NCBI GenBank assembly: GCA_020446045.1
Contig: JAGRFM010000195.1
Location: 1-32,466 of the forward strand
Direction: 5' to 3'
Source: Nitrosomonas sp.
GTDB lineage: Bacteria > Pseudomonadota > Gammaproteobacteria > Burkholderiales > Nitrosomonadaceae
Length of the DNA: 32,466 nt
A program made the position numbers and the translations under genes. Shown one piece after another: positions 1 to 32,466 of this stretch; position 1 is the stretch's first letter; every line of letters begins with the position of its first letter. A model generated the notes under the pieces. It worked only from the letters and a program-made list of their open reading frames with translations, did no database searches and had not been told where the DNA came from.

Positions 1-89
1 ACAAACATTTTTATTTCTCCCTTGTTAGATTCTTCAGCATATAATAAAAATAACCGTAGGGGGTGTCGTCATGTGTTATGTACAGTTCT

Positions 90-189
90 GTTTGTTTTTC
101 GGACAAAAGAATCAAGTTTTTGGGCCGCAGGACATGCTAAAGCATATTCAAGGTGCAAAAACGACGATAATTTTGTTCGAAAAGCAAAC
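90..189. repeat. Inverted-repeat-bounded module, orientation A
   Basis: This 100-bp module has ends GTTTGTTTTTCGGACAAAA (90-108) and its near-perfect inverse (171-189, 17 of 19 matching). The 62-bp interior (109-170), read as reverse complement, matches the interior of the corresponding module in copy 2 (4192-4253) with one mismatch. The flanking parts of the two elements are collinear, so this segment has been inverted in one copy relative to the other. Confidence 0.85.
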
Positions 190-196
190 TCGAAGG

Positions 197-297
197 GCGT
201 GGCATATTTTTGCGCCTGCTTGTTCAAGGTACTTGGACATAGCTAAGGCTATGCCCTGCGCACTTTTCATAAACATTCATCAAAAATATGCACACGC
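197..297. repeat. Second inverted-repeat module of MITE copy 1
   Basis: The left end GCGTGGCATATTTTTG (197-212) pairs with CAAAAATATGCACACGC (281-297), allowing a small bulge. Between them a small hairpin around CATAGCTAAGGCTATG is visible. This module is in the same orientation in both copies (about 4279-4382 in copy 2), unlike the 90-189 module. Confidence 0.6.
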
Positions 298-343
298 ATA
301 AATGCACATAACACATGACGCCCCCCCCTAGAGTGGGTGATAT

Positions 344-349
344 TATAAT
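344..349 (+). promoter_or_regulatory. Candidate -10 box upstream of folX
   Basis: TATAAT lies 60 bp upstream of the folX start, immediately after the right end of the MITE. No good -35 box stands 16-18 bp upstream, because that position falls in the C-run of the MITE end. Transcription of folX may therefore depend on sequence delivered by the insertion. Weak evidence. Confidence 0.3.
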
Positions 350-408
350 TAGATAATGCAGTATATAGGGTTGTGTCGGGCAAAACACTGCCAAATGCAT
401 GCAACATT

Positions 409-771
409 ATGGCTATTATTCGTATTAAGAACTTATTGCTAAGAACCTATATCGGGTTTAATGAAGAGGAAATCAGTAAATTACAGGATGTCATCATTAA
501 CATGACTATTGAAGTCGATTTGTCGCACGCTATCCGACATGACTCGGTGGATGGTTCCTACAATTACAAAGTAATTACAAAAAAAGTAATTGCTTTGGTT
601 CAGGAGCAAAAATTCATGATGTTGGAAAAGCTAACGCAAACTATTTTGGATGAGATCATGAAAAGCAAGGAAGTCTGCTTTGCCAAAGTTGAAGTTGACA
701 AGCCGCATGCACTGCGATTTGCTGAATCAGTATCGGTAGAATTGTCTGCTACGCGTAATGTTTCTGGCTAA
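409..771 (+). CDS. folX: Dihydroneopterin triphosphate 2'-epimerase (FolX)
   Basis: This 120-residue protein of the dihydroneopterin aldolase/epimerase T-fold family is close to E. coli FolX rather than FolB. It opens MAIIRIKNLLLRTYIGFNEE and carries LLEKLTQ in the middle and HALRFAESVSVEL near the C-terminus, all strongly FolX-like. FolX converts 7,8-dihydroneopterin triphosphate to the monapterin form, feeding tetrahydromonapterin, a cofactor for example of phenylalanine hydroxylase. The ATG at 409 gives the same length as the E. coli protein; an in-frame GTG at 373 would add 12 residues without family support. No clear ribosome site is visible. It lies 5 bp before the folK homologue, so the two are probably co-transcribed. 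Confidence 0.88.
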   Translation: MAIIRIKNLLLRTYIGFNEEEISKLQDVIINMTIEVDLSHAIRHDSVDGSYNYKVITKKVIALVQEQKFMMLEKLTQTILDEIMKSKEVCFAKVEVDKPHALRFAESVSVELSATRNVSG

Positions 772-776
772 ATATC

Positions 777-1169
777 ATGAATGAGGTTTGCCACGAGATT
801 AACGTTTGTATCGTTGGCGTTGGTTCCAATATCAATCCAGGCAACAATATTCAGGCTGTACTTGCTATTTTGCAGCGTGAAATGGTTGTTAAAGGTGTTT
901 CAGAATGGATTAAAACGTCTCCTGTTGGGATTATTGATCAAGATGATTTTATAAATGGTGCTGTCAAAATACATACCGCAATGTCGCAGGAGGCGTTTAA
1001 GAACTACTTAAAAAATCTGGAGGACAGATTGGGGCGCGATCGTGAACTTCCAAAATTTGGCCCTAGGGTTATTGATCTCGATATTGTTGTATGGAACGAT
1101 AAAATTATTGATGACGATTACTATACAAGAGATTTTGTAAAAAATACCGTTGATGAGTTGATGCAGTAG
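777..1169 (+). CDS. folK: Short FolK-like pterin pyrophosphokinase (HPPK)
   Basis: A 130-residue homologue of 6-hydroxymethyl-7,8-dihydropterin pyrophosphokinase, which transfers pyrophosphate from ATP to the pterin in folate synthesis. Visible motifs are the N-terminal VGVGSNI (residues 14-20), the basic RLGRDRELPKFGPR stretch and the metal-binding DLDI of VIDLDIVVW, all conserved in HPPK. The usual C-terminal part of the roughly 160-residue E. coli enzyme, with its HxRxFxLxPL-type segment, is missing: after DLDIVVW only about 30 unrelated-looking residues follow. The gene starts 5 bp after folX. Pairing with FolX suggests a specialised paralogue in monapterin metabolism, but a compact true FolK is also possible. 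Confidence 0.75.
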   Translation: MNEVCHEINVCIVGVGSNINPGNNIQAVLAILQREMVVKGVSEWIKTSPVGIIDQDDFINGAVKIHTAMSQEAFKNYLKNLEDRLGRDRELPKFGPRVIDLDIVVWNDKIIDDDYYTRDFVKNTVDELMQ

Positions 1170-1198
1170 GTTAGGTAGAAGTGAGACTGAAAAACAAA

Positions 1199-1230
1199 CC
1201 GGTTAATTTCTTGTATGAGAAATTAACCGG
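1199..1230 (-). terminator. Rho-independent terminator of the DUF2490 gene
   Basis: A perfect 12-bp stem (CCGGTTAATTTC at 1199-1210 with 1219-1230) and an 8-nt loop. On the minus strand the stem is followed by TTTGTTTTT, a good U-tract, about 60 bp beyond the stop of the minus-strand gene. On the plus strand there is no U-tract, so it would serve folK less well, though it separates the two convergent units. Confidence 0.75.
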
Positions 1231-1292
1231 ATATAAATCAGGTTACAATACCGTTTAACGGATAACCTTAAAAGAGCAGTTTTCTTATTTTA

Positions 1293-2036
1293 TTAAAAGT
1301 TTAAGAATAGATTGACTGCTAAAATATGCTGTTGTTGATCAGGGCGTGGGCTGGCTGGTCTATTGAAGTATTGATGGAGGTAACCAATTTCCCCAACTGT
1401 GAATTTGTTAAATCGCCATGCAAAACCCCCAAATGCACGATTTTGATTAAAACCAGCTCTTGCGCCTGTATCAACATTATTCATATTGATAAAAATCTCA
1501 TCTAAAACAACAAAACTGAGATTGGGTGAAACTGATGGCATAGGCACGGTCAATTTAAGAAATTGACGGAAACGATGTCCGTGTCCATCCGCTGTGCTGC
1601 CAGATCTATGGAAATCGAAAAAGCGTTGTTCTAATCGCGTGCGACTGGTAATGCTACCGAAAGAATATCTTTTGCTCCAAAGTAATTGCTGCCAAATGCG
1701 ATTTTCATTAAATGCTTTGTTAGCGGCAAATGGCCTGCTCGTCGGAATCCAGGCATAACCCAGCCAAACGCTGGTGTTTTCGGTTAATGCATAACCTATA
1801 CCTGGTCTGATGATGCCTTGCGAAAATCTGGATGAATCATTGCCAAAACGTCCTTGGCCTTCCATCCACCATTTTAATTTTGGGTTGATCGCGTCAAACG
1901 AACCGGTAGCAGTGATATTTCCCCAAAATTGGAAGTCATCCACAACATCATCGGCAAGTGTTGAATTACTAATGCCAATGGTTAGTGCAAGTATGGTTGA
2001 TACTAAAAAAATTTTTATCCTAATTTTCCTTAACAT
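1293..2036 (-). CDS. DUF2490 family outer-membrane beta-barrel protein
   Basis: A 247-residue exported protein. The start at 2036 is chosen because AAAGGGGAG lies just upstream of this ATG; an upstream in-frame start would add 15 residues before the signal peptide. The N-terminus has a basic LRKIRIK stretch, a hydrophobic core and a probable cleavage site after SNSTLA. The mature part opens with DDFQFWGNIT and continues with WWMEGQGRFGND, GIGYALTENTSVWLGYAWIP and RTRLEQRFF, the alternating aromatic pattern of DUF2490 barrels. It ends in VNLFLNF, with the terminal phenylalanine typical of outer-membrane barrels. The function of DUF2490 proteins is not known to me. Confidence 0.8.
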   Translation of the reverse strand: MLRKIRIKIFLVSTILALTIGISNSTLADDVVDDFQFWGNITATGSFDAINPKLKWWMEGQGRFGNDSSRFSQGIIRPGIGYALTENTSVWLGYAWIPTSRPFAANKAFNENRIWQQLLWSKRYSFGSITSRTRLEQRFFDFHRSGSTADGHGHRFRQFLKLTVPMPSVSPNLSFVVLDEIFINMNNVDTGARAGFNQNRAFGGFAWRFNKFTVGEIGYLHQYFNRPASPRPDQQQHILAVNLFLNF

Positions 2037-2491
2037 TTTCTCCCCTTTAAATTGTTTGTTTTTGAAATCTTTTGTCAACACAGGTTATTTTGATTTTTTT
2101 AAGTCACAATGAGTGTTTGATCTTAGAGTTTGTGTACTGTAATTTTCATTAACCAAATGAAAATAATAGGAAAATAAATCAAACATTCCTAAATTCAGGA
2201 TAACATAGCAAATGTCAAAAAATTGTTAAGAAAAATGATGCTGACACTCCTTCAACTTATTTACGGATACTACATTTTATGTTTTGAAATGATGGATTGA
2301 ACTTTCAGCCTGAACATGTGAATTCATCGTTATATTTCTATTTGACAAGTAACCGCCATACTGGGTATGGTTGTTTGGTTCAAGATATGAAACGGTTAAT
2401 CGTGTTAAATTTTGTTTCAATGATCCTGAAAAGTAGGTGTATATAAGATGATAAATTGTGATTGTTTAAAAATGGAAAATGGGAGTGAAAA
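2037..2491. other. Divergent intergenic region, DUF2490 / cytochrome c
   Basis: This 455-bp AT-rich stretch contains no convincing gene. It should hold promoters for both divergent genes. On the minus strand a TTGACA (plus-strand 2073-2078) lies close to the DUF2490 start but lacks a clear -10 box at the right distance. I found no FNR-type palindrome here. Confidence 0.5.
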
Positions 2492-2800
2492 ATGAAAAAA
2501 TCAAGCGTTCTGTTAAGTTCATTTGCTCTGTTGGCATTGGTAGGTTGTGGGGCTAGTAACGACTATACTCCTCCAGCCGATGCAACCGGAGAAAGAATTT
2601 TTAGTACCGCCTGTACGGAATGTCATAAGCCATTAAGGGGTGATGTGGCCATGATTTTGAGTGAAAAAGTGGCAAACAAAGATGCTTTGAAAAACAAATT
2701 TCAGAACGGCAGCATGAGAATGCCGGCGTTTCCGAATATTCAAGGTGAGGCGGCTGATCGTCTGGCAGATTACCTGCTCGCAAATAGTGAAGTTAAGTAG
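2492..2800 (+). CDS. Small monohaem c-type cytochrome lipoprotein
   Basis: A 102-residue protein with a lipoprotein signal peptide: KK, a hydrophobic core, then the lipobox LVGC (modified Cys near residue 19). A single haem-binding CTECH motif sits around residues 41-45. MRMPAFPNI near residues 75-83 is a plausible distal Met ligand region, and DRLADYLLA is the usual C-terminal helix of class I cytochromes. It should be anchored in the envelope as a periplasmic electron carrier; its partner is unknown. GGGAGTG lies just upstream of the ATG. It sits alone, about 590 bp upstream of the fnr-type regulator. Confidence 0.85.
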   Translation: MKKSSVLLSSFALLALVGCGASNDYTPPADATGERIFSTACTECHKPLRGDVAMILSEKVANKDALKNKFQNGSMRMPAFPNIQGEAADRLADYLLANSEVK

Positions 2801-2816
2801 GTCAGTGCGGTAAATT

Positions 2817-2851
2817 TTGGCGTCAGAGTAATAAAGTAAATCTGACGCCAA
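2817..2851 (+). terminator. Hairpin after the cytochrome gene
   Basis: A perfect 11-bp stem (TTGGCGTCAGA at 2817-2827 with 2841-2851) 16 bp after the stop codon. No U-tract follows on the plus strand, so it may act as an mRNA-stabilising or Rho-assisted terminator rather than a classical intrinsic one. Confidence 0.55.
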
Positions 2852-3387
2852 CAAAGTAGTTGGTAATGCATCGTGTCAATAGTTTAAAAATGCTCAACAA
2901 CGTTTGTTGAAACCAATGTATATATCGTGGTGCGGTTCATAAGCTACTGAAGTATGGCTTCTCACGACATGCCTCTCTAATGACTTTGCGGGTTAATCCT
3001 GTTTGATTGGATTGTATGTCACTTACTCCTTGTGTTTCTCATTTTCGCTATAACACAAGCTATTTGAATATCTGGGCGTAATGCGGATAAGCTTTTGTTC
3101 GGCAGTCTTTTTAGATACCCGCCTTTCATTTATATACAGCAAAACAGCCAAGCAATGAAGGTGAATGTTATTTTTTGATGCGAAGCGTTTATCTTGCGGA
3201 AAACAGAAGAAAATGAATGTGTGATTCAAACGTGTATCCGGGTTTTTTTATAAATAAAGCAACACATACCTTCTTATTGGAAGTATCATTATAATGATAG
3301 TTTGGTCTTTTATTTTGATTAAAGTCAATAAAAATAAGCATTAAATCATCCCAATTTAACTGATAATTCTGAAAAACGGAAAATATC
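2852..3387. other. Long intergenic region before fnr
   Basis: No supported gene in 536 bp. A 17-bp palindrome, TCAACAA-CGT-TTGTTGA, lies at 2894-2910, and an FNR-type site at 3315-3328 is listed separately. Minus-strand open frames of 68-73 codons here have no recognisable domain, no clear ribosome site and no family resemblance, and are left out. Confidence 0.5.
3315..3328 (+). promoter_or_regulatory. FNR/ANR box upstream of fnr
   Basis: TTGAT-TAAA-GTCAA matches the FNR consensus TTGAT-N4-ATCAA at 9 of 10 half-site positions. It lies 60 bp upstream of the fnr start, so the gene is probably autoregulated according to oxygen, as in E. coli. No unambiguous -10 box was seen beside it. Confidence 0.7.
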
Positions 3388-4140
3388 TTGTTACCAGAAC
3401 GGTTCTCCACAAAAGATTTTGATGTTGCGCAAATTCGTTCGAGTTGCTCTAGTTGCAGCTTGAGAGAATTATGTTTGCCTGTTGGGTTAAATGATGAGGA
3501 GGTTGAATCGCTTGGAGAGGTGGTGGCTCACAAACGCAAAATACTGCGTGGAGGTTATCTCCATCGAACAGGAACAAAATTTCAGGCCTTGTATGCTGTC
3601 AAAAGCGGTTTTCTGAAAACATGTGTCTTGGAAGAAGACGGGCGTCAGCAAGTGACTGGTTTTCATATGACTGGAGAGTTGCTCGGGCTGGATGCAATCA
3701 GTGCCGATATGCACACCTGTGATGCAATTGCTTTGGAGGATAGTGAGGTGTGCGAAATACCCTTTTCTAAACTGGAGGATATCAGTCGGACAATACCTTC
3801 TCTGATGCATCGTTTTCATAAAATTATGAGCCGGGAAATTGTCCGTGATCATGGTGTTATGCTGTTGCTCGGCAGTATGAAAGCAGAAGAGAGACTTGCT
3901 TCGTTTTTATTGAATATGTCTCGCCGGTTTGCAATTCGTGGTTATTCCGAAACTGATTTTAATTTGAGAATGACGCGCGAAGAAATTGGCAGTTATCTTG
4001 GTTTAAAACTGGAAACGGTAAGCCGGGCTTTTTCAAAATTGCAAGAGGAAGCAATTATTTCGGTCAATAACAAACATATTCAAATTTTGGATCTTGAGCG
4101 TCTGAAATTGAAGATGGGGAATATTTCCTGTTCGACTTAG
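3388..4140 (+). CDS. fnr: FNR-type oxygen-sensing transcription regulator
   Basis: A 250-residue CRP/FNR family protein. Counting from the TTG at 3388 puts cysteines at residues 20, 23, 29 and 122, exactly the four that bind the [4Fe-4S] cluster in E. coli FNR, which supports this non-ATG start. The cyclic-nucleotide-like beta-roll spans about 45-150; MKAEERLASFLLN begins the dimer-to-DNA-binding segment; the recognition helix LKLETVSR keeps the E-x-x-S-R specificity of FNR. It probably switches genes for low-oxygen respiration. An FNR box lies upstream. A MITE sits exactly at the stop codon: the T and A of TAG are the MITE target site and the G is its first base. Removing the element restores TAA, so the protein was not altered. 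Confidence 0.9.
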   Translation: MLPERFSTKDFDVAQIRSSCSSCSLRELCLPVGLNDEEVESLGEVVAHKRKILRGGYLHRTGTKFQALYAVKSGFLKTCVLEEDGRQQVTGFHMTGELLGLDAISADMHTCDAIALEDSEVCEIPFSKLEDISRTIPSLMHRFHKIMSREIVRDHGVMLLLGSMKAEERLASFLLNMSRRFAIRGYSETDFNLRMTREEIGSYLGLKLETVSRAFSKLQEEAIISVNNKHIQILDLERLKLKMGNISCST

Positions 4141-4413
4141 AGGGGGCGTCGCCATGCATTATGTACAATTCTATTTGTTTTTCGAACAAAATTATCGTCG
4201 TTTTTGCACCTTGAATATGCTTTAGCATGTCCTGCGACCCAAAAACTTGATTCTTTTGCCCGAAAAACAAACCCGAAGGGCGTGGCATATTTTTGTGCCT
4301 GCTTGTTCAAGGTACTTGGACATAGCTAAGGCTATACCCTGCGTACTTTTCACAAACATCCATCAAAAATCTGTACACGCATAAATGCACATAACACATG
4401 ACGACACCTCCTA
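4138..4413. mobile_element. MITE-like element, copy 2
   Basis: A second copy of the element at 57-330, in the same overall orientation. TA flanks (4138-4139 and 4412-4413) enclose 272 bp. The right terminal repeat reads inward from 4411 as GGAGGTGTCGTCATG; the left carries two extra bases. Outside the central module it is collinear with copy 1, whereas the central 100 bp (4173-4272) are inverted. It occupies the fnr-rpsB intergenic space, about 70 bp upstream of the rpsB promoter, and may serve as a transcriptional spacer or fnr terminator. Confidence 0.85.
4173..4272. repeat. Inverted-repeat-bounded module, orientation B
   Basis: Ends ATTTGTTTTTCGAACAAAA (4173-4191) and TTTTGCCCGAAAAACAAAC (4254-4272) are inverted repeats. 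The interior is the reverse complement of that in copy 1 with a single mismatch over 62 bp, while sequence on both outer sides matches copy 1 directly. Confidence 0.85.
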
Positions 4414-4484
4414 AGAATTGTTCCTTGTTTGTAATCAGGCTGATTAAAGATTTCTTCTATTGATTTTTCGGGCATTGCGCCTGC

Positions 4485-4512
4485 TTGAGTGCTGTTCTGA
4501 AAATGTTATAAT
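4485..4512 (+). promoter_or_regulatory. Sigma-70 promoter for rpsB
   Basis: TTGAGT (4485-4490), a 16-bp spacer and a perfect TATAAT (4507-4512). Transcription would start near 4519, giving an mRNA leader of about 140 nt before rpsB. This probably drives rpsB-tsf and much of the downstream run. Confidence 0.75.
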
Positions 4513-4562
4513 GCACGGTTGCTGACCTTGAATAAGGGCGGCAATTTAACATTTAGAACACA

Positions 4563-4659: not shown

Positions 4660-5376
4660 ATGTCAGTAACAATGCGGCAAATGCTGGAAGCGGGTGTCCA
4701 TTTTGGTCATCAAACCCGTTTCTGGAATCCCAAAATGGCTCCCTATATTTTTGGCCATCGCAACAAGATTCATATCATCAATCTGGAACGTACCCTTGAA
4801 TTGTATGAAGACGCCATGAAATATGTGCGCCAGTTATCAGCCAATAAAGGTGTTATTTTATTCGTTGGCACCAAGCGTCAGGCACGCGATATTATTCGTG
4901 AAGAAGCGGCGCGTTGTGGTTCGCCTTATGTAGATCAGCGCTGGCTGGGGGGCATGTTGACTAATTTCAAAACCATCAAGCAATCAATCAAACGTCTTCA
5001 TGACATGGAAACGATGGTGCAGGATGGTACGCTGGAAAAGATGATCAAGAAAGAAGCGCTTGATTTGCAACGTGAATTGGATAAGCTGAATGCAAGTCTG
5101 GGTGGCATCAAGGACATGAAAAGCTTGCCGGATGCCTTGTTTGTCGTGGATGTGGGATACCAGAAAGGCGCCATCACTGAAGCGAAAAAGCTGGGTATTC
5201 CTGTGATTGGCGTCGTAGATACGAACCATAATCCTGACGGTATGCATTACATCATTCCAGGAAATGATGATTCAAGCCGGGCGATACGGTTGTATGCCCG
5301 TGGTGTGGCGGATGCTGTTTTGGAAGGGCGTAATCAGGCGATTCAGGAAATCGTAGAGATGGCTGCAGAAGACTAA
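4660..5376 (+). CDS. rpsB: 30S ribosomal protein S2
   Basis: 239 residues, beginning [20 protein letters not shown], the classic S2 N-terminus. [39 protein letters not shown] and DTNHNPDG are conserved. S2 binds the head-body junction of the small subunit late in assembly. The start at 4660 has AGGAGA 6 nt upstream; the open frame extends 47 codons further but the extra residues are leader sequence. It is the first gene of the long operon and is followed by tsf after 130 bp. Confidence 0.98.
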
Positions 5377-16817: not shown

Positions 16818-18488
16818 TTAACCCTGAATATTTTTTTCCAGCTCTGCTAATCTATTTTTGGCGCCTTGGTAGTATTCAACATTATATTCATCAATACCAC
16901 TTTCCTCTATCATTTGAATTAGTTGCGTGATTTCCTTTATTTCGTTTATTTTTTTAATCTTTTGCTTCATGATTTCATCAACAGCTTGTTGCATAGCTTG
17001 TTGTCCTGCCACGGTTTGATTATATCTTTTAGCTTTGGCTCTATTTTTTGTTATGACTTCACGATTTTTCGCAACATCAGCCATGGTCGTCGTCCCATTC
17101 GGATGCGTAGGCTTTGCAACATGCTTTACTTTAACATTTTTATCTCCGTTAATAATACGTGACGCATTTATTGTATGATGACTATCGAGAAGAACTAACC
17201 CTCTTGTATCTGCTGTTTTGGCTGCTCGAGTAACAAAGGCTACCGGAGGTGGAGTCATGATGAAAGATCCTTCCAAAATTTTTGCTGCTCTGGCAACGAC
17301 TTTCTTGGCCTCAATGGGTTGAAGTAAATTGAACCTCGAGCCTCCCAAATGTACAGATCCTTCGTGCTCTAATCCTGCCCATGCCTGCTGGTCTAATAAT
17401 CCATCAATCGGCACGTCCAATTCTTGACCATCCATTGGCCCTAATATTTTCTGCGCTTCCGTTTCTTCAGTTTCGTTCCATGTCATTTGCACTACAAGTT
17501 GAGACTTTCGTTGAAAAACGGTCCTTAGTTGACTGCTTTCCATATGGATAGCAGCATTTGAAACGACTGTATTTTTATCGGTGAATAAAGTGGAACGGAT
17601 AGGGTCTGAACCTAAGGCGTCAGACACGATTGGATTTCCCAAGTATTGCTGCTCCTGCACCACCCCAGCAGAAACCGCCCGCTCCCCCATCACATCCGCC
17701 TCAGCCTCCAACGACTCATCATCATTAACCTGCTGCCCTGCCATCTGCATGGTGGGTTTCACCCGTCCCTGAGCCTGCTGCACCACATGCCACGCCTCGT
17801 GTGGCAAATGTTTTTCCTGCCCCGGCGCCAGATGAATATCCGTCCCTTGCGCATAAGCATGCGCATTTAATTGCTCGGGTTGTGAAGAATTGTAATGGAC
17901 TTTCACATTGTCCATCGACATGCCGGACAGGTGTTCGATGCCGGACTTGAGGTTGTCGGGCAACCCGGTGTTGTTTTGTTTTGCTGCCGGTACTTCTGTC
18001 AACTGAGCGGTTTCAAATTTCCCCTGCACCAACTCGTCTTCCTCCACGCGTTGCACCGGGTCGAATTTTCCCTGAATCAGCTCGTCTTCATCTTCAACTC
18101 GCTGGCTGACTTCGAACTTGCCCTGCAACAATTCTTCATCCTCAACACGCTGAATGGGCTGGGATTGGAACAGACCCTGCACCGGTTCTTCCTCGTCACC
18201 CATCCGCTGCACCGCAGCCCCCGTGATTTGGGTAAATTGTTGACGTTGCGGAATCATGCGCGGGCTGTTGCTGAATTGTTCGCTGAGTGTGCGTTGCGCT
18301 ACGGCCTGCAGGCTGTTATTGGCCATCGCGGCCAATTGCGCCAGTTCATTGACCTGCGGATTATTGTTCGCCATCGCCTCGAGTTGCGCGATCTGTTCTC
18401 CCTGAGGCGATTCGAGCGACGCACCCTTGTCTTTGCGTTGCGCCTGCTGGTTTTGGGTATGGTTGTGTTGCGGTTCGGCTTTTTGCAT
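16818..18488 (-). CDS. DUF4157 (HEAWH) protein, putative exported effector
   Basis: 556 residues. The ATG at 18488 has GGAGAGGGG just upstream; a GTG at 18551 is less likely. No signal peptide. The N-terminal 90 residues are Gln/Asn-rich with a tandem QLEAMANN/QLAAMANN repeat. Residues about 94-160 hold four repeats of the QRVEDEELLQGKF type. A DUF4157 domain (about 175-250: LPDNLKSGIEHLSGMSMDNV, then HLPHEAWHVVQQAQGRV) carries HEAWH at 230-234, a possible zinc-metalloprotease site. The C-terminal 200 residues, with LLDSHHTINASR (about 433-444) and a lysine-rich coiled tail, are unassigned. DUF4157 proteins are known cargo or toxins linked to extracellular contractile injection systems; none is in this window. 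The C-terminal half is much more AT-rich than the N-terminal half. Confidence 0.85.
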   Translation of the reverse strand: MQKAEPQHNHTQNQQAQRKDKGASLESPQGEQIAQLEAMANNNPQVNELAQLAAMANNSLQAVAQRTLSEQFSNSPRMIPQRQQFTQITGAAVQRMGDEEEPVQGLFQSQPIQRVEDEELLQGKFEVSQRVEDEDELIQGKFDPVQRVEEDELVQGKFETAQLTEVPAAKQNNTGLPDNLKSGIEHLSGMSMDNVKVHYNSSQPEQLNAHAYAQGTDIHLAPGQEKHLPHEAWHVVQQAQGRVKPTMQMAGQQVNDDESLEAEADVMGERAVSAGVVQEQQYLGNPIVSDALGSDPIRSTLFTDKNTVVSNAAIHMESSQLRTVFQRKSQLVVQMTWNETEETEAQKILGPMDGQELDVPIDGLLDQQAWAGLEHEGSVHLGGSRFNLLQPIEAKKVVARAAKILEGSFIMTPPPVAFVTRAAKTADTRGLVLLDSHHTINASRIINGDKNVKVKHVAKPTHPNGTTTMADVAKNREVITKNRAKAKRYNQTVAGQQAMQQAVDEIMKQKIKKINEIKEITQLIQMIEESGIDEYNVEYYQGAKNRLAELEKNIQG

Positions 18489-18647
18489 ATCCCCTCTCCA
18501 TTGTCCCTGTGATGTGGCGAGTAGCTGCACGTTGTCGTTCCAAGTCGTCACGGTATCGTCGCACCATCACTTTTGCGGTACAGGCAGTGCACATTACCCG
18601 GCTGGATAGACTGAATATAGGAAAAACACCATTTTTCCCGAAAATTG

Positions 18648-31699: not shown

Positions 31700-32034
31700 A
31701 ACAGGAAATTACAAATCTTGAATACAAAGGGGCTGTTACATTTGAGAGTGGCACTGATCAATTTATTCTTTCAGGTAACTCAACTGACCGACAAAACGAA
31801 GAATACATGTATTGGAGATTTTATCTTCCACTAGAATCTAACTCTGAAACAATTAAAGGTATAGTGACATCCTATACACATGATAAAAACCCCTACTCAT
31901 CTGCCGCTGTTTTATCTAAAAAAAGATTAAATTTAGCGCAGGCTGAAAACATACTAAAGGAAATATCCATAGATACGGGTGATTTACCTTTATTAAGGAT
32001 AAAAAAAGTGGCTCTTCTCCGGTTATATGTATAA
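31687..32034 (+). CDS. C-terminal part of the split protein
   Basis: 115 residues from a GTG at 31687, or 112 from the ATG at 31696, which overlaps the upstream stop as ATGA. It looks like a beta-rich soluble domain: EYKGAVTFESGTDQFILSG, YMYWRFYLPLES, then AAVLSKKRLNLAQAENILKE. No signal peptide, no recognised family. Its last 119 bp are antisense to the tail of the RAYT frame, so its final residues may come from a rearranged junction. Confidence 0.5.
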   Translation: MWKMKQEITNLEYKGAVTFESGTDQFILSGNSTDRQNEEYMYWRFYLPLESNSETIKGIVTSYTHDKNPYSSAAVLSKKRLNLAQAENILKEISIDTGDLPLLRIKKVALLRLYV

Positions 32035-32466
32035 AAAAAGGATGGCACAAACTCATTAAACTGTTGAAATAAAAGGGCCATAGGATGTACTGAACAACGT
32101 GAAGCGCATCGTTCGAGTACTCTGCATCTTCAATTTCATATCGCTCATCATTTCCCCAATTCTCCGAATAAATACCTTGCCTGACATAACGGTGGAAACT
32201 GGAATACGGCCATTCCGCCACTCTTGCTACTTTGCTGTGCTTCACCGGATTCCAATGAATATAATCGAAATGGCGATTGTAGTCGTCTTGGTCTGTGATT
32301 AAATGCGCCCAAAATCGGCGCTGCCATATACCTCTTTCCCGGCGTTTTTGCCGACTTTTCGAAATGCTTTCACCATGGTCGATTGTCCTGGAAAATCGTC
32401 CTTTCAGCATATTCCACCGGATTGAATAATCACCATCGTCTTGCGGTAATGTCCAAATGCAATGTA
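31916..32466 (-). CDS. RAYT (REP-associated tyrosine transposase), partial
   Basis: The gene enters from beyond the right edge of the window; 183 residues are visible. The first complete codon is His, followed by CIWTLP, so the edge falls within the HUH metal-binding motif (usually DHLHC). RWNMLKGRFSR, WQRRFWAHLITDQDDY and the catalytic-tyrosine region FDYIHWNPVKH are intact. RAYTs belong to the IS200/IS605 Y1 transposases and are linked to REP palindromes; none was seen here. After VAEWPYSSFHRYVRQGIYSE and WGNDERYEIE, where family members normally end soon, the frame runs on for about 70 residues antisense to the neighbouring gene, suggesting that the native stop was lost. Confidence 0.8.
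   Translation of the reverse strand, partial: HCIWTLPQDDGDYSIRWNMLKGRFSRTIDHGESISKSRQKRRERGIWQRRFWAHLITDQDDYNRHFDYIHWNPVKHSKVARVAEWPYSSFHRYVRQGIYSENWGNDERYEIEDAEYSNDALHVVQYILWPFYFNSLMSLCHPFFIHITGEEPLFLSLIKVNHPYLWIFPLVCFQPALNLIFF

Follow-up and report, generated by a model that had tools for sequence, protein, structure and literature searches.

Correia repeat enclosed elements of Neisseria, which insert at TA, resemble the Nitrosomonas miniature inverted-repeat element (MITE) described here in being short, multicopy and bounded by terminal inverted repeats. Inversion of a Correia element has been reported (Elbeyioglu et al. 2017, as cited in PMC10969869); by that citation the whole element inverts, whereas in the Nitrosomonas MITE an internal hairpin is inverted and the outside stays collinear, and the two are likened by description only. 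The same source ascribes stable transcript folds to Coxiella QMITE2 and other prokaryotic MITEs. By description only, QMITE2 is in a similar size range to our element and shares a very stable predicted fold, but the accessible portion of PMC10969869 makes no mention of an inverted internal module in QMITE2 or the other MITEs.

Template switching at inverted repeats is an already known mutational process. In the parts of PMC8604942 available to us, switching at short imperfect inverted repeats leads to arm homogenisation and spacer inversion, and the available text of PMC8794818 gives template-switch loop inversions, two of them drawn from bacterial rRNA. As in the Nitrosomonas MITE, inverted repeats flank the flipped segment in these quasi-palindromes and the arms can converge, and one MITE copy (L109, below) has perfected arms as well. 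The spacers or loops inverted in those excerpts are of 2–5 bp and up to 7–8 nt, whereas the MITE interior is 62 nt; unlike those systems, the MITE, being multicopy and bacterial, offers many unflipped sister copies for comparison. Human/chimpanzee microinversions flanked by inverted repeats measure 17–33 nt, against 62 nt for the MITE interior, and in the accessible part of PMC8755829 the authors regard many of them as not easily explained by template switching and propose a break-induced mechanism instead.

The element and its two copies in the window

The window (the whole 32,466-nt stretch of Nitrosomonas sp. DNA that was analysed) holds two 274-bp copies of the MITE, at 57-330 and 4140-4413. 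The host genome gave 77 BLAST matches to the element and 84 matches to its terminal repeat, compared with 5 for a reversed control, and the element was matched in 5/85 genomes of the genus, in one of them (G006) by trace only. In many full copies the 34-nt ends match each other at 85–91%, and most of the 22 copies inspected have TA at both ends, with no longer duplication seen. With terminal inverted repeats, many dispersed copies and a length of 274 bp, too short for a transposase, the family is a non-autonomous, TA-bounded MITE of Nitrosomonas. The TA ends fit derivation from IS630/Tc1-mariner elements, but a search around three DDE_3 (PF13358) loci in the host genome (a 242-contig draft) turned up no matching IS630-type transposase and no autonomous partner with matching ends; the best terminal-repeat matches there had 5 substitutions, the limit of the search. 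Neither viral contigs (0 matches) nor plasmids matched the element, and Rfam returned none at gathering scores. Judged by title and start of abstract among the matches listed, the literature searched showed no description of the family and nothing on Nitrosomonas repeats; "Nitrosomonas" with "miniature inverted-repeat" retrieved integron work alone, and "miniature inverted-repeat" with "template switch" retrieved nothing on bacterial MITEs.

The two copies form a direct repeat (58-330 and 4141-4413, 81% over 273 nt), within which 90-188 and 4174-4272 form an inverted pair of 99 nt at 97%. Compared in the direct sense, the modules of copy 1 and copy 2 are identical at 65/100 positions; as reverse complement they agree at 96/99. 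The outer parts match in the direct sense, at 93% on the right and 84% on the left. The first-pass annotation's description of a collinear outside around a reverse-complemented module is thus borne out, and its count of one mismatch in the 62-nt interior holds (61/62 identical once reverse-complemented). The 19-nt inverted repeats that it placed around the module are present in both copies, though imperfect, with 2 mismatches in copy 1 and 3 in copy 2; the second element is also where it had been placed, except that its start, given as 4138, is better taken as 4140. The features are as follows.

57..330, + strand: MITE copy 1, subfamily A, canonical module, bounded by TA (repeat comparison; RNA fold)
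57..90, + strand: left terminal inverted repeat of copy 1 (85% match to 330-297 in reverse)
297..330, - strand: right terminal inverted repeat of copy 1 (pairs with the left terminal repeat)
90..189, + strand: 100-bp module of copy 1, hairpin 1, canonical (repeat match; DNA fold)
90..108, + strand: left arm of the copy 1 module, 19 nt (arm comparison)
171..189, - strand: right arm of the copy 1 module, 19 nt (arm comparison)
197..297, + strand: hairpin 2 of copy 1 (predicted fold; limits approximate)
4140..4413, + strand: MITE copy 2, inverted module within outer parts collinear with those of copy 1; TA degenerate at the left end (repeat comparison)
4173..4272, - strand: inverted 100-bp module of copy 2 (repeat comparison; interior scores)
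4173..4191, + strand: copy 2 module, left arm; left-arm type (subfamily A) at position 6, right-arm type at positions 13-14 (arm comparison)
4254..4272, - strand: copy 2 module, right arm; carries T at position 6, the letter of subfamily A left arms (arm comparison)

Orientation of the module across the family

Interior scores for 52 copies leave no place for chance as the source of the inverted match: 48 of these copies gave 35–62 in the forward sense and at most 20 as reverse complement. Copy 2 gave 12 forward and 60 as reverse complement, and L045, L046 and L033 scored below 35 either way because their interior is deleted or cut off. Across four Nitrosomonas genomes, one per species, 136 loci were examined; of the 64 that could be scored, 62 were canonical and 2 inverted. 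A further 67 were not scorable and 5 lacked an element segment; L073, L091 and L092 had no element hit. The two inverted loci are window copy 2 and L151, a copy in Nitrosomonas sp. Nm51 that is independent of it and has lost part of its sequence. L151 was absent from our first count (39 canonical and 1 inverted in the host genome, 18 canonical in relatives) and surfaced in a search for inverted junctions in 85 genomes of the genus, allowing at most 3 mismatches. Two places had the inverted left junction: 4169-4197 in the window, with 0 mismatches, and G086:C77:109982-110010 in Nm51, with 1; by their letters, the remaining hits were canonical arm ends, except for the loop deletion of L046. Loci were picked from the matches listed and are not always distinct copies, as several lie at contig ends and may be parts of one copy. 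Since L151–L155 were added from a search that targeted the inverted junction itself, the share of 2/64 is, if anything, too high.

Several loci flagged as inverted proved not to be. Early automatic scoring listed four such loci, but in three of them (L034, L042 and L080) the query for the right module had hit nothing beyond the terminal repeat. L034 and L042 were rescored as canonical. L080 has too little interior to score, but the 38 bases of the module that it shows lie next to the left repeat in canonical orientation. L046 (scores 11 and 11), likewise flagged, is a loop deletion with no interior.

Module inversion is therefore rare in the family, since 62/64 scorable loci are canonical, and it recurs at low frequency, as two singletons in different species. 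That the module has inverted within the family at its internal inverted repeats, as first proposed, was confirmed, with the limits falling inside the arms; the further suggestion of ongoing inversion was not. Nor did we see two fixed, separate subfamilies of opposite orientation, the pattern named beforehand as speaking for a single ancient event: the scorable copies of subfamilies A and B, of G069, of G081 and of Nm51 are canonical except for the two singletons.

These counts bear on whether a site-specific recombinase acts at the 19-nt arms to make the segment invertible and phase-variable. Inverted repeats do bound the copy 2 segment, and by eye the arms carry an imperfect internal dyad. 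In a phase-variable switch, however, both orientations would be common among the copies, and we counted 62 against 2, which rules out a freely flipping switch for the family; under free flipping, at most 1 inverted copy among 40 in the host genome has a probability of about 4e-11. A rarely used switch fares better, as with an inverted share of 10% the same outcome has a probability of 0.08. The non-conservative structure of L151 also speaks against a recombinase, and a Pfam scan of seven window translations (of 39 ORFs of at least 120 aa) revealed none. We give this explanation very little credence.

An assembly artefact in copy 2 is equally hard to credit. The family is hard to assemble, with many copies at contig ends in the 242-contig draft. 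Copy 2, however, sits inside a 32-kb contig; the inverted left junction occurs nowhere else in the host genome, which rules out borrowing from a different assembled copy; and an inverted junction was found in a second genome, that of Nm51.

Arm signatures and the route of inversion

In L151 (L151:253-408) the right half of the module runs as its reverse complement (94% over 52 nt), and the copy then joins back to the right part at the 9-nt microhomology TATGCTCTG, where L151 itself reads TATACTCTG. TATGCTCTG is the longest word common to the reversed module and the right part in Nm51 copy L096; for the Nm51 copies L099 and L105 the corresponding words reach only 7 nt. Conservative inversion alone would not yield a half inversion with such a rejoining; a full inversion with a later slippage deletion at the 9-nt repeat could. 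We also compared arms among copies no shorter than 220 nt, including a few truncated ones. The Nm51 copy L109 has perfect arms of 19 nt in hairpin 1 and 32 nt in hairpin 2, whereas the other 34 copies measured reach at most 12 and 11, respectively. Two copies, L046 and L045, carry loop deletions at or near the arms of hairpin 1.

At arm position 6, subfamily A right arms have C in 18/18 readable cases and left arms have T in 18/19. Copy 2 has T in both arms, with the subfamily types at positions 13-14 exchanged, so that its left-arm exchange point lies between arm positions 7 and 12. A single reciprocal exchange in a subfamily A copy would leave T and C, whereas two separate switch points can give T in both. 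From the 12/236 sites outside the arms at which copy 2 departs from the consensus of subfamily A, we estimate a later transition to be a very unlikely source of its T/T state. The same state is found in seven of the Nm51 copies listed (L096, L099, L102, L105, L107, L109 and L112), and the possibility that copy 2 descends from such a form slightly lowers our confidence in template switching.

Copy 2 shows a precise inversion of a segment flanked by inverted repeats, as in quasi-palindrome template switching, and arm position 6 alone speaks for arm homogenisation or non-reciprocal switching in it. On the sequence evidence, we consider it probable that DNA-polymerase template switching at the inverted repeats inverted the module of copy 2. 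The nascent strand would have left its template inside the left arm, at arm positions 7-12, and the module would then have been copied off the complementary strand; a return switch towards the outer end of the right arm, ahead of position 6, would leave the interior inverted and arm position 6 equal in both arms. Template switching is favoured over a recombinase by the exchange within the 19-nt arms of copy 2, the half flip of L151 with its 9-nt rejoining and the perfect arms of L109. Among the three mechanisms that the first-pass annotation had offered, hairpin-mediated strand switching is the best fit.

Reciprocal recombination, RecA-dependent or not, could have inverted the module in one event between the 19-nt arms or between inverted copies elsewhere. 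In its favour, the exchange falls within near-identical arms, and a T/T ancestor like the Nm51 copies would explain the arms of copy 2 without further mutation. Differences from consensus at 1/62 interior sites compared with 11/174 outer sites might hint at a younger donor (Fisher p = 0.19). For homologous recombination, however, the shared arm is short and imperfect, and in its other features copy 2 belongs to subfamily A, in which right arms have C. As reciprocal recombination by itself also leaves the half inversion of L151 and the arms of L109 unexplained, we regard it as unlikely.

The 9-nt microhomology at the return point of L151 would also suit microhomology-mediated break-induced replication after the loop had broken, a mechanism that the accessible part of PMC8755829 proposes for microinversions between inverted repeats. 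This route is hard to separate from template switching at the fork by sequence alone, but arm perfection as in L109 is, in the available text of PMC8604942, the usual mark of fork switching, and we hold break-induced replication to be quite improbable here.

Predicted fold and neighboring genes

As a single strand the MITE is predicted to form a three-way junction, composed of a terminal-repeat stem and two hairpins, one of which is the module. The RNA fold of copy 1 has this terminal stem and two hairpins (-118.5 kcal/mol), and the DNA fold of its module gave z-scores of -5.2 (+ strand) and -3.5 (- strand). The reverse complement of a hairpin is still a hairpin, so inversion of the module keeps the outline of the fold and is probably near-neutral; we infer that the inverted form has no function. 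The evidence points to copy 2 as a rare slip of DNA copying at a hairpin and not a working genetic switch, and a flipped module with inverted repeats on either side is not necessarily a phase switch.

Among 30 canonical copies, 26 hairpin-arm pairs had changed on both sides, compared with 12.2 in shuffles, a figure that relatedness among the copies inflates. Such covariation in MITE hairpins need not signal selection for RNA structure. Multicopy MITEs with long imperfect hairpins provide dozens of parallel quasi-palindrome copies per genome, in which the outcomes of template switching (spacer inversion, arm correction and loop deletion) can be counted against the majority form. Tentatively, and with the odds somewhat against it, the MITE could be read as a natural recorder of template switching, its hairpins kept, corrected, inverted and deleted by strand switching and not by selection on the fold. 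If so, the arm covariation would be a trace left by mutation, and the spectrum of inversion, correction and deletion in a wild bacterium could be estimated directly from the family.

Positions 412-771 match Pfam FolB (dihydroneopterin aldolase) and 4660-5376 match ribosomal protein S2 (Pfam). One further feature lies between copy 2 and the latter gene.

4485..4512, + strand: sigma-70-like promoter match before rpsB, outside the element (promoter scan)

An effect of the module on rpsB is unlikely, judging from the position of the promoter-like block, which starts after 71 bp beyond the end of the element, and from its match (4480-4521 or 4483-4521) in 2/8 relatives, G006 and Nm51. Each of the two stretches scanned had 2 promoter-like sites, about the number in shuffles (1.6), and the two had 0 and 1 terminators, compared with 0.6 and 0.7. 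From the end of an fnr-like match to the block before rpsB, the distance is 68 nt in Nm51, which is 276 less than the 344 nt of the window.

Two copies of the element with opposed modules

According to the first-pass annotation, two MITE copies (57-330 and 4138-4413) have collinear outer parts but carry segment 90-189 in opposite orientations, and this was confirmed by repeat search and alignment. The repeat search of the window returned a direct repeat of 273 nt (58-330 / 4141-4413, 81%) and, inside it, an inverted pair of 99 nt (90-188 / 4174-4272, 97%). On alignment, the 100-bp module of copy 1 (57-330) matched that of copy 2 (4140-4413) at 96/99 positions in the inverted sense and at 65/100 in the direct sense. 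The 62-nt interior, between imperfect 19-nt arms, was identical at 61/62 positions in the inverted sense, and the right-hand outer part of the two copies showed 93% identity in the direct sense.

The module is an imperfect palindrome with a hairpin fold (DNA fold z of -5.2 for the + strand of 90-189, -3.5 for its - strand and -5.1 for the + strand of 4173-4272). With RNA parameters, copy 1 was predicted to form a terminal stem and two hairpins (-118.5 kcal/mol, z -10.5), hairpin 1 being the module, and copy 2 to have the same outline plus one further small hairpin (-88.3, z -7.3). As the reverse complement of a hairpin is again a hairpin, the predicted architecture would survive inversion of the module. 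Across 30 canonical copies 91.6% of structure cells were paired, the structure having been derived from one of these sequences, and 26 pairs were changed on both sides vs 12.2 in shuffles, a test that relatedness inflates.

Distribution of the family and orientation of the module

The host of the MITE is a Nitrosomonas, and no description of this family was found in the literature searched. Its own genome (3.57 Mb, 242 contigs) gave 77 BLAST matches to the element, and the terminal repeat (up to 2 mismatches) matched 84 times there vs 5 with the reversed control. Full-length copies are about 274 bp, TA to TA in most, and in this genome fall into subfamily A, to which both window copies belong, and subfamily B, the two being about 85% similar. 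The element was matched in 5/85 genus genomes (its own, G069, G081, Nitrosomonas sp. Nm51 and, as a trace, G006); a module-core pattern search also matched in Nm51. No autonomous partner element was found around the three DDE_3 transposase loci examined. The family breaks the assembly of the own genome, where many contigs stop inside this MITE (at about element position 174 in C156, C219 and C145, for example), so that a single copy may be represented by more than one locus. Short copies were seen in Nm51 (L114 and L134, about 145-155 bp, without hairpin 1) and in the own genome (L074 and L075, about 160-171 bp, with most of hairpin 2 missing). At L085:87-464 (own genome, C180) about 230 bp interrupt the right part of a copy, and some 6 bases of the element recur at either edge, a pattern that insertion of a further small element might have left.

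Orientation was scored with anchors specific to the left and right sides, together with the two halves of the interior, at 136 loci (65 in the own genome, 41 in Nm51, 29 in G081 and 1 in G069), of which 64 were scorable, 67 were not and 5 lacked an element segment. The module was canonical in 62 of the 64 and inverted in 2: the own genome had 42 canonical and 1 inverted (window copy 2), Nm51 13 and 1 (locus L151), and all scorable loci in G081 (6/6) and G069 (1/1) were canonical. L151 came from a junction search, after a count on a smaller locus set had given 39 canonical and 1 inverted in the own genome and 18 and 0 in relatives. At most 1 inverted of 40 has a probability of about 4e-11 under free flipping and 0.08 at a 10% inverted share. 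The first-pass annotation had envisaged an invertible segment or, failing that, two fixed subfamilies of opposite orientation; these counts exclude both the latter and a general 50:50 switch, and a very rarely used switch would be compatible with the numbers alone.

The inverted left junction (85 genomes, up to 3 mismatches) was found at 4169-4197 of the window with 0 mismatches and at G086:C77:109982-110010, in Nm51, with 1. The remaining matches (2-3 mismatches) had the letters of canonical arm ends or of a loop deletion at locus L046, and the reversed-pattern control gave no match in the 85 genomes. The canonical junction gave 42 matches in the own genome, 2 of them copy 2's own junctions, and elsewhere 14 in Nm51 (one being L151), 4 in G081, 1 in G069 and 1 in G077, where the element search had found no element. 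Inversion of the module is real and rare.

Arm patterns and the origin of the inversion

Template switching, a known mutational process, is the best explanation of module inversion. In subfamily A, arm position 6 is C in 18/18 readable right arms and T in 18/19 left arms, and positions 13-14 are AA in right arms and GG or GA in left arms. Copy 2 has T in both arms at position 6, with AA at 13-14 in its left arm and GG in its right. Taken as a member of subfamily A, it would have undergone exchange between arm positions 7 and 12 on the left and before position 6 on the right. Template switching readily accounts for two such separate points. A single reciprocal exchange between the arms would need either an added point mutation, for which our own estimate is about 5% (12 differences over 236 sites), or an ancestor with T in both arms, a state present in seven of the Nm51 copies listed. 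Position 6 differs between the subfamilies (mostly T left and C right in A, C left and mostly T right in B), while the interior has the same orientation in both.

The second inverted copy, L151:253-408 (G086:C77:109952-110107), has half of the module flipped. Its left end and left arm are followed by module positions 100-49 in reverse complement (94% over 52 nt) and then by the right part from about position 61 of that part. The join lies at TATGCTCTG, a 9-nt microhomology and the longest word that the right part of Nm51 copy L096 shares with the reversed module, and L151 itself has TATACTCTG there; with the right parts of L099 and L105 the longest common words are 7 nt. Either one switch returning at microhomology or an inversion followed by deletion at the 9-nt repeat could have produced L151. 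We take it as independent of the window event, since its sequence follows the Nm51 copies and it belongs to another species.

Another Nm51 copy, L109 (G086:C115:47374-47615), has perfect arms of 19 nt in hairpin 1 and 32 nt in hairpin 2, the latter with a loop of 5 nt; among the other 34 copies measured, which were 220 nt or longer and included a few truncated ones, the maxima are 12 and 11. Loop deletion is also an outcome at hairpins, and the hairpin 1 loop was lost at or near the arms in L046 and L045.

The inversions and perfected arms of the family belong among known template-switch outcomes. Passages of PMC8604942 describe arm homogenisation and spacer inversion by template switching at imperfect inverted repeats, and according to passages of PMC8794818 it can invert the loops of RNA hairpins or introduce compensatory changes, although the 62-nt interior here is longer than the inversions in either. 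For microinversions of 17-33 nt between inverted repeats, PMC8755829 proposes break-induced replication instead, and we keep that process as a rival for the module inversion. Given template switching, the remaining interest of the family is as a natural record of its outcomes in bacteria.

Neighboring genes and other features of the window

The distance separating the end of the fnr-like match from the block that precedes rpsB is 344 nt in the window vs 68 nt in Nm51, a difference of 276 or about one element, and the window flanks, joined without the element, align to Nm51. Between the fnr-like gene and rpsB no element was matched at E 0.01 in 8 relatives, the fnr-like gene being unmatched in two (L143 and L145); another relative's locus, L148, has a 21-nt terminal-repeat-like match upstream of its fnr-like gene. 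The promoter-like site of rpsB (4485-4512) falls outside the element. Of the 8 relatives, G006 and Nm51 matched the block that contains it and the remaining 6 did not. A promoter scan of 1-480 found nothing promoter-like on the strand of the FolB-type gene. The first-pass annotation had suggested that the segment could affect local transcription; nothing in these analyses suggests that module orientation would matter to genes.

Two other features were recorded:
16818-18551, - strand, 577-aa protein with the eCIS core domain PF13699; visual inspection showed repeats in the N-terminal half
31916-32410, - strand, ORF with no Pfam match at 0.001

One stretch of the latter resembles REP-associated tyrosine transposases.
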